64,000 bases of DNA, taken from Phyllobacterium myrsinacearum (GTDB lineage: Bacteria > Pseudomonadota > Alphaproteobacteria > Rhizobiales > Rhizobiaceae). The notes under the pieces were generated by a model. That model saw only the letters and a program-made list of their open reading frames with translations. It was not told the DNA's origin and did not search any database. Of this stretch, positions 14,764-64,000 are shown one piece after another. The position numbers were made by a program, and so were the translations under genes. The stretch is taken from positions 62,001 to 126,000 of the forward strand of contig NZ_PVBT01000001.1 of assembly GCF_002980555.1 (NCBI RefSeq), in the 5' to 3' direction. The first letter of the stretch is position 1; every line of letters starts with the position of its first letter.

Positions 14764-15199
14764 CCTTGCCCAAAGTCGCACGTGCCCCATGGGTGTCCGC
14801 CGATCTTCATTATGGTGAAGAAACGGTATGGTACCTGGAACTAACCCCTCCAGTCAGTTTGACGGCCTACTGCCAAACTGAGGACATCTTGAAGCAACGA
14901 CGGTGCGGGCCTTTCTGGTGTCTTTCGGCTGTCCATAAGCCGGAATTACTGAAGAGGCACACCTTCATTGCCGGTAGTGCGGATGGCTTCATCCAAACCA
15001 AGGCAGACAAAGCGGATCAACGCTGGCTTAGCGTAGATCCATCGCCGCATGAACTTGTCCGTGTTTCCAGCATCTCCAAAGGCTGGCTTCGCGCGAGATG
15101 GATTCACGCACTTTGTCCTGGCGGTCATACGGGGGAGAAACCCCTGCGATCGCGACTTGTTGAGGCGGCCGGAAGTGCCGTCACGATTGGAGACCCAAG
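14764..15199 (+). ncRNA. speF-type leader RNA upstream of ornithine decarboxylase
   Basis: A 436-bp stretch between the amidase promoter region and the decarboxylase ATG has no convincing gene. Long conserved structured leaders of this size (the speF motif) are known upstream of this decarboxylase in Alphaproteobacteria. Hairpin material is visible, for example GGGG/CCCC around 15130-15146 and CAGTCAGTTTG...CAAACTG at 14851-14880. The assignment rests on gene context, length and position; a covariance-model search was not possible. It probably controls decarboxylase expression, perhaps in response to polyamine or ornithine. Promoter-like words lie around 14733-14760. Confidence 0.65.
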
Positions 15200-61300: not shown

Positions 61301-62011
61301 ATGCTCGATCTGATCAAGCCTTCGCTTGCCCGCTTTGCCGCCAGCCTGCACACGGAACCGCCAGTGCATCTCGGCAGGCGCTACAACAGTGCGGGCGTCT
61401 TTCAGCCGGAACCCGGCAATACGGTGGTCTGCCATCTGGTGAAGGGTTCTGAGTCGGAAGCCTCGGTCATTGCGGTGCGCGAACGGATGCTGGCAATGCC
61501 CGATGCCGGGCAGCTGGCCTTTACCCCCGTCTCCAGCCTGCACATGACGCTGTTTCAGGGGATTATAGAATATCGCCGCCGCCCGTCCTACTGGCCCGAT
61601 GACGTTCCGCTGGAGACAAGCATCGACGAGATGACGCGGCTTTACGTGGATCGCCTGCAGGATTTCGAGGGCTGCGGACCGTTCAACGTCGAGGTGATCG
61701 ACGTGACGCCCGCCGGCCTCACCGTGGCGGGAGCGAGCGAATATGACGAGCGCATCATGCGCGCCTGGCGCGACGAACTGGCCGTGCCGTTCGGTTACCG
61801 GCATCCTGATCACGACACCTATGTCTTCCATGTCACGCTGGCCTATCCCATCGCGCGTTTTCCCGATGAGAGGCTCGGGGCCTGGCAGGAACTTCTGGAT
61901 GATTGCCTAGCATTCATCCGGCGTGAATCGCCGGTCATTGCACTCAATCCGCCGGCATTCTGCAGTTTCGCCGATATGAATCATTTCGAGGAACTGGTGG
62001 TTCTGGATTGA
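61301..62011 (+). CDS. DUF1868 protein, 2H phosphoesterase-like
   Basis: 236 residues. Two HxT motifs, SLHMTLFQG and FHVTLAYPI, are the marks of 2H phosphoesterases. They may act on cyclic phosphates of nucleotides or RNA. It follows fucD after 81 bp. The role in the locus is not evident; it may be a separate unit. Confidence 0.82.
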   Translation: MLDLIKPSLARFAASLHTEPPVHLGRRYNSAGVFQPEPGNTVVCHLVKGSESEASVIAVRERMLAMPDAGQLAFTPVSSLHMTLFQGIIEYRRRPSYWPDDVPLETSIDEMTRLYVDRLQDFEGCGPFNVEVIDVTPAGLTVAGASEYDERIMRAWRDELAVPFGYRHPDHDTYVFHVTLAYPIARFPDERLGAWQELLDDCLAFIRRESPVIALNPPAFCSFADMNHFEELVVLD

Positions 62012-62137
62012 ACCAGTGGCCGTTTGATCGCCAATCTGCGACATAGTGTACAGGCACCCTACGTGTCGTCTTACGTAAATGCGATGTCGTTTCCGCACCT
62101 ATTCTTTTTGGGTGGCGGATGCTTTTATCGGGGCACT

Positions 62138-62308
62138 TGAGGTGCCGCTTTTCTAGGGAAGCGGAGAATTGGGAAGCCGGTCGGAAACCCGGCGCTGCCC
62201 CCGCAACGGTAGTGGAGTGAAACACGGCATAACAGCCACTGGGCCACAATCCGGGAAGGCGTCGTGACAGCCGATACGGCAACTCCAGAGCCCGGAAACC
62301 AGCCTCGG
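62138..62308 (+). ncRNA. Cobalamin (adenosylcobalamin-class) riboswitch
   Basis: Conserved blocks appear in the correct order: GGTGCC near 62141, GGGAAGCCGGT, the core GCTGCCCCCGCAACGG, CCACTGGG, GGGAAGGCG, and the B12 box AGCCCGGAAACCAGCC (about 62289-62304). It lies 140 bases before the Rieske oxygenase gene on the same strand. It should lower expression when B12 is plentiful. Confidence 0.93.
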
Positions 62309-62323
62309 GACATGAAAACCGAC

Positions 62324-62400
62324 TGATCGCGGTGGGCGATCAAGGAGCATGATTCTGCACGGGTATCGGCCGGTGGCCGGCCGCGCAGGCGTTCTTCCTC
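62324..62400 (+). promoter_or_regulatory. Expression-platform hairpins after the riboswitch
   Basis: TGATCGC (62324-62330) pairs with GCGATCA (62336-62342). CGGCCGG (62367-62373) pairs with CCGGCCG (62377-62383). A CTTCCTCC tract (about 62393-62400) could pair with the GAGGCGAGGA ribosome site before the ATG. No T-run is seen, so control is probably at translation. Confidence 0.5.
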
Positions 62401-62447
62401 CGTCACCACCAGTCAGTTCTTTCGCAACATCGAGGCGAGGACACGAC

Positions 62448-63692
62448 ATGGATATACGCAACGAACTGCTCCGGGACCTGAGAAACCGGAAACCGGGCTA
62501 CGGCCTTGAACAGGCCTTCTACTCCGATCCGGATTATTTCCGGCTGGACATGGAGAACATCTTTTATCGCGACTGGCTGTTCATCGGCCATGATTGCGAA
62601 GTCGCCAAGCCGGGCAATTTTTTCACGGTGCAGGTCGGCGACTATCCCGTTGTCATTGTGCGTGACCGCCAGGGCCAGATCCGGGCTTTCCACAATTCCT
62701 GCCGCCATCGCGGCTCGCGCGTCTGTTCGGCCGAGCGCGGTACGTCGGCAAAGCTCGTCTGCCCCTATCACCAGTGGACCTACGAGCTTGACGGGCGCCT
62801 GCTGTTCGCCCGCCAGATGGGCGATGATTTCGACGCCAGCCAGCACAGCTTGAAACCGGTGCCGTGCGAAAGCGTCGGCGGTTACATCTTCATCTGCCTG
62901 GCGCAGAATCCTGTCGATTTCAGCGCGGCGCGCGCACTGATCGAACCCTATCTCGCACCGCACCACCTCACCGAAACCAAGGTCGCCTTTCAGAGCACCA
63001 TCGTCGAGAAGGGTAACTGGAAGCTGGTCTGGGAAAACAACCGCGAATGCTACCACTGCGTGGCCAATCATCCTGAACTGTGCAAGACCTTCCCGGAAGC
63101 GCCGAGCGTGAGCGGTGTCCAGGGCGCCGCCGACGATCCGGAAATCGCCGCCCATTGGCAGCGTTGCGAAGCGGCAGGCCTCCCAAGCGCGTTCCGCATG
63201 TCGGATGACGGCCAGTACCGCGCCACCCGCGTGCCGCTTCTGCGTGATGCGGAAAGCTATACGATGAGCGGGCGCCGCGCCGTCGGCCGTCAGCTCAGCA
63301 ACAGCGTCAACGAGAAGCAGATCGGCTCGCTGCTGCTGTTCCACTATCCGACCACATGGAACCATGTGCTCGGCGACCATGCCATTTCCTTCCGCGTGCT
63401 GCCGCTCAGCCCGGATGAAACGCAGGTCACCACCAAATGGCTGGTGCACAAGGATGCGGTCGAGGGTGTGGACTACACCATCGAAGAACTGACGCATGTC
63501 TGGCTTGAGACCAATGACCAGGACCGCCGCATCGTTGAGGAAAACGCCTTCGGCATCCGCTCGCCCGCCTATGAGCCCGGACCCTATTCGCCCGAGCATG
63601 AAGGCGGCGTGCTGCAATTCCTCGAATGGTACTGCAGGTTCATGGAAGAGCGTCTTTCCGGCGGCGATACGCGGCTCAGCAAGGTAGCATAG
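62448..63692 (+). CDS. gbcA: Rieske non-heme iron oxygenase, glycine-betaine demethylase (GbcA) type
   Basis: 414 residues. Rieske ligands are Cys85, His87, Cys105 and His108 (SCRHRGSRVC, CPYHQW). The mononuclear iron uses His203 and His208 (NNRECYHCVANHPE) and a later Asp. It would remove one methyl of glycine betaine as formaldehyde. Homologues also act on stachydrine or carnitine, so the substrate is likely but not certain. The paired reductase starts seven bases after its stop. Confidence 0.82.
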   Translation: MDIRNELLRDLRNRKPGYGLEQAFYSDPDYFRLDMENIFYRDWLFIGHDCEVAKPGNFFTVQVGDYPVVIVRDRQGQIRAFHNSCRHRGSRVCSAERGTSAKLVCPYHQWTYELDGRLLFARQMGDDFDASQHSLKPVPCESVGGYIFICLAQNPVDFSAARALIEPYLAPHHLTETKVAFQSTIVEKGNWKLVWENNRECYHCVANHPELCKTFPEAPSVSGVQGAADDPEIAAHWQRCEAAGLPSAFRMSDDGQYRATRVPLLRDAESYTMSGRRAVGRQLSNSVNEKQIGSLLLFHYPTTWNHVLGDHAISFRVLPLSPDETQVTTKWLVHKDAVEGVDYTIEELTHVWLETNDQDRRIVEENAFGIRSPAYEPGPYSPEHEGGVLQFLEWYCRFMEERLSGGDTRLSKVA

Positions 63693-63699
63693 GTACACA

Positions 63700-64000
63700 A
63701 TGAACATGGGCGTTCCTCAGTCTTACCCGCACCTCGACCAGATGCAGCCGTGGAATGACCGGCTGCATCTGCTGGAGTGTCTGTCGATCATCGAGGAAGC
63801 GCCGAATGTGAAGACCTTCACATTCCGTTCCGACAATCAGAACTGGTTCCGCTACGAGCCGGGCCAGTTCATGACCTTCGAGCTGCCGGTGCAGCCCGAA
63901 GCCGTCCTGCGCACCTATACGCTGTCCTCCAGCCCGTCACGGCCCTTCACCATTGCCGTGACGGTCAAGGCGCAGGAGAACAGCATCGGCACCCGCTGGA
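63700..64000 (+). CDS. gbcB: Oxygenase reductase subunit, GbcB type (cut by window end)
   Basis: The first 100 residues of a ferredoxin-NADP-reductase-like protein. After a short N-terminal extension comes WNDRLHLLECLSIIEEAPNVK, with the FAD-binding LRTYTLSSSPS and FTIAVTVK. It supplies electrons to the Rieske oxygenase. The right end continues beyond the window; a second ATG lies six bases downstream. Confidence 0.85.
   Translation, partial: MNMGVPQSYPHLDQMQPWNDRLHLLECLSIIEEAPNVKTFTFRSDNQNWFRYEPGQFMTFELPVQPEAVLRTYTLSSSPSRPFTIAVTVKAQENSIGTRW

Follow-up and report, generated by a model that had tools for sequence, protein, structure and literature searches.

At the 3′ end of the window, the 64,000-nucleotide stretch of a Phyllobacterium myrsinacearum contig analysed here, a cobalamin (vitamin B12) riboswitch is followed on the same strand by gbcA-like and gbcB-like genes for a Rieske oxygenase and a reductase. 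We consider it highly probable that gbcAB is a B12-independent stand-in for the betaine methyltransferase system MtgB-MtgC-MtgD, and that it is repressed by B12 through the riboswitch, as metE is. The elements of the locus are listed below in window coordinates; L5, L13 and P13 are the names that we take to apply to the leader elements, with L5 and L13 as the partners of a presumed kissing loop, and C1 is the contig that carries the window.

62123..62321, + strand: aptamer of a cobalamin riboswitch (RF00174), with L5 loop CCCCCG and B12 box GCCACTG..GGGAAGG
62324..62342, + strand: P13 hairpin of the putative expression platform; stem 62324-62330 / 62336-62342, loop GGTGG at 62331-62335, complementary to L5
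62322..62417, + strand: alternative (anti-sequestering) helix, pairing ACTGA 62322-62326 with TCAGT 62413-62417 and GGTGG 62331-62335 with CCACC 62406-62410; it excludes P13
62432..62443, + strand: ribosome-binding region of gbcA, GAGGCGAGGACA, predicted to be less accessible with P13 formed
62448..63692, + strand: gbcA-like gene for a group Vb Rieske oxygenase of 414 amino acids (Rieske C85-H87-C105-H108; N198; bridging E200; C201/C204; iron ligands H203/H208)
63700..64000, + strand: gbcB-like gene for a flavin adenine dinucleotide/2Fe-2S reductase; its first 301 bases lie in the window and it continues to C1:126791 (L008 3701-4792, L008 being the stretch that runs past the window end)

The initial annotation had read a B12 riboswitch at this place, and a covariance-model search (cmscan) bears this out: RF00174 matches window positions 62123-62321 (+) at E 5.1e-25 and 104.2 bits, the gathering score being 31.5, across the full model (1-189), with no truncation and with the B12 box present. 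The start that had been given, 62138, falls inside the riboswitch, and the true match begins 15 bases earlier. The arrangement of riboswitch and GbcAB-like operon also stands and is widely conserved, and the genes past the window end, which the annotation had proposed to inspect, are the remainder of gbcB, completed at C1:126791, followed by convergent purU and others. We assessed conservation in the best 80 named homologues from a search of genome contigs, in which at least 80 exist (the named set). RF00174 lies just upstream of gbcA in 54 of these 80 loci, and gbcB is the next gene in all 54, starting no more than 250 bases after gbcA as located by script. The riboswitch-bearing loci include Mesorhizobium, Sinorhizobium/Ensifer, Shinella, Ciceribacter, Aminobacter, Pannonibacter and Inquilinus. 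The 26 loci in which no riboswitch was found include the Rhizobium phaseoli/ruizarguesonis/mongolense group, Agrobacterium, Brucella-genus species, Sphingomonas and Xaviernesmea; here gbcB follows gbcA in 11; in the 15 others, from the R. phaseoli/ruizarguesonis/mongolense group, a search within 3 kb gave no gbcB-like match, and the oxygenase must therefore draw on a reductase encoded elsewhere.

The gbcA product carries the Pfam Rieske and Ring_hydroxyl_A domains, and its best NCBIfam model is GbcA (NF058607, an equivalog; 522 bits, E 7e-157, under the curated cut-off of 670). Only one further match to this model exists in the genome, and it is much weaker (288 bits). The gbcB product is likewise matched best by GbcB (379 bits, with the cut-off of 500 unmet). 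The GbcA cut-off may be narrow, given that an orthologue in Paracoccus, with fdhA and a BCCT transporter as neighbours, likewise stays under it (535 bits). Among solved structures, the closest are 3n0q, a putative oxygenase (562 bits), and 3vca, the stachydrine demethylase Stc2 (550 bits). With group Vb defined as in the available sections of PMC7948474 and PMC10952381, the protein shows the group signature NNRECYHC..H, with Asn in place of CntA Tyr203, Cys-x-x-Cys and the Rieske ligands, and the residues checked are invariant in 81/81 close sequences. At the level of family, the window protein is a betaine demethylase that we call GbcA-like rather than GbcA, any exact substrate being a putative assignment. 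The pair shares with GbcAB/BmoAB of Pseudomonas and Chromohalobacter the oxygenase-reductase composition, the group Vb motif (Asn for CntA Tyr, the Cys pair, the His ligands) and the best model for both subunits; it differs in scoring under the cut-offs of both models and in having a riboswitch upstream, whereas GbdR controls gbcA in Pseudomonas. Translation of gbcA likely starts at ATG 62448, because homologue matches begin there and the leaders, placed side by side, have a common purine-rich stretch ahead of it. A start at ATG 62349 (a 447-amino-acid frame) was rejected: an in-frame ATG at -99 occurs only in the window among 55 leaders. Somewhere within 130 bases an in-frame ATG is found in 17/55 leaders, the window included, with the other 16 at other distances.

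The 5.44-Mb genome holds seven RF00174 sites, which precede nrdAB, an ATP-binding cassette (ABC) importer, metE, gbcAB, bluB, cobP-cobW-cobN and cbtA, the last site being weak (32 bits). MetE, NrdA, NrdB and BluB score over NCBIfam cut-offs, CbtA over its Pfam cut-off, and CobP, CobW and CobN, which have their own riboswitch upstream, all over cut-offs; for the importer behind the C8 riboswitch, which is of siderophore/cobalamin type, no model exceeded its cut-off. The B12-dependent enzymes MetH and NrdJ are encoded as well, both over cut-offs. Three of the seven sites precede B12-independent enzymes with encoded B12-dependent counterparts, if the counterpart that we propose for gbcAB is accepted. 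That counterpart would be among the MtgBCD-type genes that lie near the cob genes. There are two MttB-family proteins, at C1:551078 and C1:562710. A corrinoid protein adjoins the first, and the same stretch encodes a methyl-tetrahydrofolate methyltransferase, a MetF-like protein, a RACo-type activator and an MtgE-like protein. Close to the other MttB gene lie a transporter ATPase that scores over a betaine/proline/choline-family cut-off and a protein that we read as dimethylglycine-dehydrogenase-like, for which the models give only GcvT/sarcosine-oxidase-type matches. We propose that MttB-family proteins share the substrate of GbcAB.

The presence of the MttB family separates the two groups of genomes in the named set. 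RF00174 covariance-model scans and MttB (PF06253) searches covered all 80, and MtgC and cobN searches 50 of the 80 genomes. MttB occurs in 53 of the 54 riboswitch genomes versus none of the 26 without one (Fisher p 3.5e-20, a value that ignores kinship). A close MtgC, 82-95% identical to that of P. myrsinacearum, was found in all 23 intact-riboswitch genomes tested, and no MtgC match at E 1e-30 in 27 genomes, namely the 26 lacking a riboswitch and Rhizobium sp. Leaf371 (L043), whose riboswitch is decayed. As a control, cobN is present in 27/27 of the genomes without a riboswitch or with the decayed one (26 + 1) and in 21/23 with an intact one; B12 synthesis is therefore no predictor of the riboswitch, and we rejected it as the determinant. 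Records titled Rhizobium show both states: eight have riboswitch and MttB, 15 neither, and one the decayed riboswitch without MttB.

The association extends to a sample of the order, comprising 297 genomes, 64 of them with a match at E 1e-100. Sixty of the 81 non-window places were fetched, the remaining 21 being at most 48% identical, and the best 40 places were tabulated with the window. In this table 19 places have riboswitch and MttB, none has the riboswitch without MttB, seven have MttB without the riboswitch and 15 have neither; the next 20 places, outside the table, showed no riboswitch over threshold. Counted by genome, MttB is present in 18/18 with a riboswitch-bearing gbcA. The sample and the named set overlap in some genomes (the L080 and L172 proteins, for example, are identical). 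In distant relatives the rule is thus one-way: the riboswitch implies MttB, and MttB does not imply the riboswitch.

On a gbcA tree of the named set, riboswitch and MttB each change five times, and the changes are concordant except at L043. A Pagel-type likelihood test, written for this analysis and applied to the named tree only, supports correlated evolution (likelihood ratio 24.2, p 7e-5). A combined tree with 40 further sequences gives eight and nine changes; gbcA gene trees need not equal species trees. The discordant genome, L043, has no MttB or MtgC match, and its riboswitch (L043 2642-2833) scores 57.9 bits versus 79-117 in the other 53. The B12-box motif was not found in it, CGCCC stands in place of the CCCCC loop, and of 52 leaders it alone has P13 broken at three pairs. 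Riboswitch and MttB are both absent from Xaviernesmea (L018), the sister of L043 with support of 100/98 in one tree and weaker support in two others. Once the B12-dependent enzyme was lost, relaxed selection would leave just such a leader as that of L043, a natural record of riboswitch loss.

These observations suggest to us that GbcAB may be made only when the B12 needed for the usual, B12-dependent demethylation of betaine is short. GbcAB would take a methyl off glycine betaine or a close relative in an O2-dependent, B12-independent reaction, while MtgB would transfer the methyl to the corrinoid protein MtgC and MtgD would pass it on to tetrahydrofolate. With adenosylcobalamin plentiful, the leader would bind it, the L5-L13 contact would hold P13 in place, and the ribosome-binding site of gbcA would be sequestered; gbcAB would be off and betaine would go through MtgBCD. 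With B12 short, P13 would open, its 5′ strand would pair further downstream and the ribosome-binding site would be freed, whereupon GbcAB would take over and the methyl would leave as formaldehyde. If gbcAB is a B12-independent stand-in for MtgBCD, the riboswitch makes sense in front of it as it does at metE.

The leader supports this scheme at several points. The P13 core served to place 52 leaders, in which the hairpin was scored; L046, L051 and L054 were beyond the distance limit. The inner six pairs of P13 are retained in 50/52 with compensatory changes (paired changes GATC/GGTC, GGTT/AGCC, GGCT/GGCC and GACC/GGTC); the exceptions are L087, with one mismatch, and L043, with its three broken pairs, and the outermost pair is open in some leaders. 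The P13 loop reads GGYGG in most leaders and, judged by eye, is complementary to the L5 sequence CCCCCG. In the window leader, P13 appears in the minimum free energy fold and the alternative helix in the centroid fold. The downstream CCACC/TCAGT element is present in 31/35 leaders of the window type and missing from four. We folded the 31 leaders holding both helices with each state enforced; these leaders are related and so do not amount to 31 independent cases, and other P13 types were left out. The ribosome-binding region is more exposed in the alternative state in 30/31 (mean 0.58 vs 0.26), and the P13 state is favoured by ~3 kcal/mol on average. In an earlier folding test, access to the region was lower with the native linkers (0.32) than after these had been shuffled (0.43; p 1e-6). 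No plus-strand terminator-like site was found between the aptamer and gbcA, the sole one in 61950-62500 lying inside the aptamer (62132-62146). No sigma-70-like promoter was found in 61950-62500 either, a weak negative in that the same scan found none upstream of the riboswitch. Because P13 covaries, accessibility shifts between the enforced folds and no terminator-like site precedes the gene, B12 likely represses the translation of gbcA. The direction of the response is taken from the leader folds, which predict it, and expression is accordingly predicted to fall under ample B12.

Several results weigh against the stand-in role or its proposed mechanism. An independent-pairs test gave 4-0 or 3-0 (p 0.125-0.25), with too few pairs for significance, and a median p of 0.125 with the order sample. 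The combined tree merges two of the five losses into one clade, so that the Agrobacterium and Rhizobium losses may be a single event. The named genomes are of unstated completeness. The seven more distant gbcA-family places with MttB and without a riboswitch (L185, L189, L191, L196, L198, L199, L200) have no riboswitch beside these genes in their genomes, one of which (G334) has one at its other copy; L191 and L199 fall in the Stc2 clade and likely have a different substrate, and the other five are unexplained. At the protein level, the GbcA-model score lies below its cut-off, as given above, and the MtgC of P. myrsinacearum reaches 217 of 370 bits, below its NCBIfam cut-off. PF06253 presumably spans several betaine and amine methyltransferases. 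In the leader, banning or masking P13 in the first folding test left access to the ribosome-binding site unchanged (0.33 vs 0.32, p 0.43), the ban probably being ineffective, and the stability of the window leader does not exceed that of shuffles (z -0.30, -0.34).

Four other explanations bear on the same observations. The same switch could serve another betaine, with GbcAB demethylating stachydrine, carnitine or another quaternary amine and backing up another MttB-family enzyme, a variant that we regard as possible though doubtful. Stc2 is one of the two closest solved relatives and itself scores nearly as well on the GbcA model (494 bits vs 522 for the window protein), and the genome encodes two MttB-family proteins, with up to 12 in relatives. 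For glycine betaine speaks the fact that GbcA is the best curated model. Three further points go against another betaine, none of them decisive: the window protein lies outside the supported Stc2 clade (100/100); the position of Stc2 Ala223, which the available text of PMC10952381 names at the bound proline, is occupied by Thr in 79 of 81 close homologues and by Ser in the other two, and by Ala in L191 and L199 of the Stc2 clade; and orthologues adjoin a GlxA-type regulator, fdhA and a BCCT transporter (Paracoccus) or fdhA (an Agrobacterium plasmid). We infer that glycine betaine, or a close relative, is the probable substrate of GbcAB. Coupling between oxygenase and methyltransferase would be superfluous if riboswitch-gbcAB had simply been inherited or transferred along with the MttB genes. 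As such common descent would have it, the traits cluster on the tree, and no more than a few contrasts (4-5) are independent. The two loci, however, lie at C1:124 k and C1:551 k, ~0.43 Mb apart on one contig, so close physical linkage is no explanation here; riboswitch loss accompanies MttB loss in separate lineages that retain gbcA, the L043 leader is decaying, and both states coexist among the Rhizobium-titled records. We think it unlikely that descent accounts for the pattern.

The metabolic link that the initial annotation had suspected behind the riboswitch is supported, though neither of the two forms it had put forward is so in full. One was that low B12 turns on betaine breakdown and so releases glycine, a precursor of the B12 tetrapyrrole. 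The class of the riboswitch and the cobP-cobW-cobN genes behind a riboswitch of their own would suit this idea, but the riboswitch is predicted by the presence of MttB and MtgC and not by B12 synthesis; cobN is the more complete in the genomes without an intact riboswitch (27/27 vs 21/23), and two riboswitch genomes gave no cobN match. We did not find the idea borne out and consider it very improbable. The other was that a failure of B12-dependent methionine synthesis leads the cell to spare methyl groups or send them elsewhere. This is half right: a B12-dependent step does predict the riboswitch, but that step is the betaine methyltransferase (MttB/MtgB family, with MtgC) and not methionine synthase. 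Methionine has its own riboswitch-preceded spare, metE, which covers it at low B12. In its favour, MtgC and MtgD have a double role in Ruegeria, serving both betaine demethylation and methionine synthesis in the text available of PMC12478193, and an MtgE-like protein is encoded in the MttB region here; against it, the product of GbcAB according to the same text is formaldehyde, which is no methyl donor. As an explanation in its own right we hold methyl sparing to be improbable, and it may be a side effect of the stand-in role of gbcAB.

Stc2 of Sinorhizobium meliloti 1021 (PDB 3vca) can be set against the window protein. Both belong to group Vb and share 57.5% identity; Stc2 differs in its own clade, in Ala223 versus Thr/Ser and in having no riboswitch motif pair upstream on pSymA by motif search, where the pSymA protein (L212) is identical to Stc2 over 394 residues. 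The motif comparison in S. meliloti covered plasmids. On pSymB of strains USDA1021 and Ak57 (L210, L211) the riboswitch motif pair stands with a gbcA orthologue. For the strain 1021 plasmid the best match listed is Stc2 on pSymA, and riboswitch-gbcA is perhaps an accessory trait within the species.

A B12 riboswitch ahead of B12-independent isozymes is a known arrangement (PMC2211319, in the sections available), and "isozymes of B12-dependent enzymes" form a category in PMC3766115, the available main text of which contains neither "betaine" nor "oxygenase". Like metE/metH and nrdAB/nrdJ, both of which are present here, gbcAB/MtgBCD has the riboswitch before the B12-independent member and the B12-dependent member in the same genome. 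Unlike them, it is catabolic, and its members are of unrelated chemistry, an oxygenase that would yield formaldehyde and a corrinoid methyltransferase that would yield methyl-tetrahydrofolate. The available main text of PMC12478193 describes demethylation of glycine betaine in Ruegeria pomeroyi via MtgB-MtgC-MtgD, which it terms cobalamin-dependent, with no growth of mtgC and mtgD mutants on glycine betaine, and formaldehyde as the product of GbcAB in Pseudomonas and Chromohalobacter. It places genes similar to MtgBCDE, our proposed partner, near cob in S. meliloti, as we find here, and it names bacteria with GbcAB but without MtgBCDE, whereas both are in one genome here; "riboswitch" occurs in it once, in a reference title on the glycine riboswitch. 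We found no published B12 riboswitch before gbcA or any Rieske oxygenase in the titles and abstract starts of the papers listed, which covered neither subscription papers nor regulon databases. Repression of B12-independent isozymes by B12 riboswitches is known; gbcAB is, in the literature searched, a case of which we found no report, and a catabolic one with a chemically unrelated pair.

After the known metE and nrdAB, gbcAB/MtgBCD would be the third B12-independent/-dependent pair under B12 riboswitches in this genome. If so, the route taken by the methyl carbon of a major osmolyte would depend on B12 supply in bacteria of soil and plants, a cell with both GbcAB and MtgBCD would have a use for two seemingly redundant systems, and loss of MtgC should prevent growth on betaine only with B12 present. 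It is somewhat better than an even guess that one vitamin sets betaine chemistry in many alphaproteobacteria: with B12, the methyl would reach tetrahydrofolate and could feed methionine; without it, the oxygenase would turn it into formaldehyde. In that case metE, nrdAB and gbcAB would make up a single "live without B12" programme, and microbial B12 exchange would steer betaine carbon.

Further cobalamin riboswitches were seen near some gbcA loci. In Mesorhizobium zhangyense a second one (L028 5769-5975, 120.6 bits) lies ~1.5 kb downstream of gbcA. Matches cut at stretch ends occur at L123 569-661 (G230) and L128 1-117 (G141); both are upstream of a riboswitch-bearing gbcA on the opposite strand and perhaps belong to divergent B12-controlled neighbours.

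A 2H-phosphodiesterase-like protein (PF08975/DUF1868; window 61301-62011), on the same strand just 5′ of the riboswitch, has no counterpart beside gbcA in the best 80 named loci, and six neighbours in P. myrsinacearum, gbcB not counted, gave no tblastn match at 1e-10 in the same loci (up to 3 kb on each side). A shared operon logic with the convergent downstream genes (purU, PanB-like, MocE-type ferredoxin and others) was rejected on this ground. These convergent genes (L008 5018-19901, C1:127017-141900) comprise purU, a PanB-like gene, a ferredoxin reductase, a MocE-family ferredoxin (over cut-off) and a desaturase-like gene, and further along, as read from the sequence, a LacI-type regulator, a sugar-isomerase-like gene, an ABC transporter and IolG/IolC-like genes. 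The stretch looks like a putative rhizopine or inositol breakdown region with a MocDEF-type demethylase, moc and iol being the names that we presume to apply. Elsewhere in the window, at 14768-15065, an ar45 small RNA (141.7 bits) lies in direct tandem with a speF leader (101 bits), and a gap of eight bases separates them.

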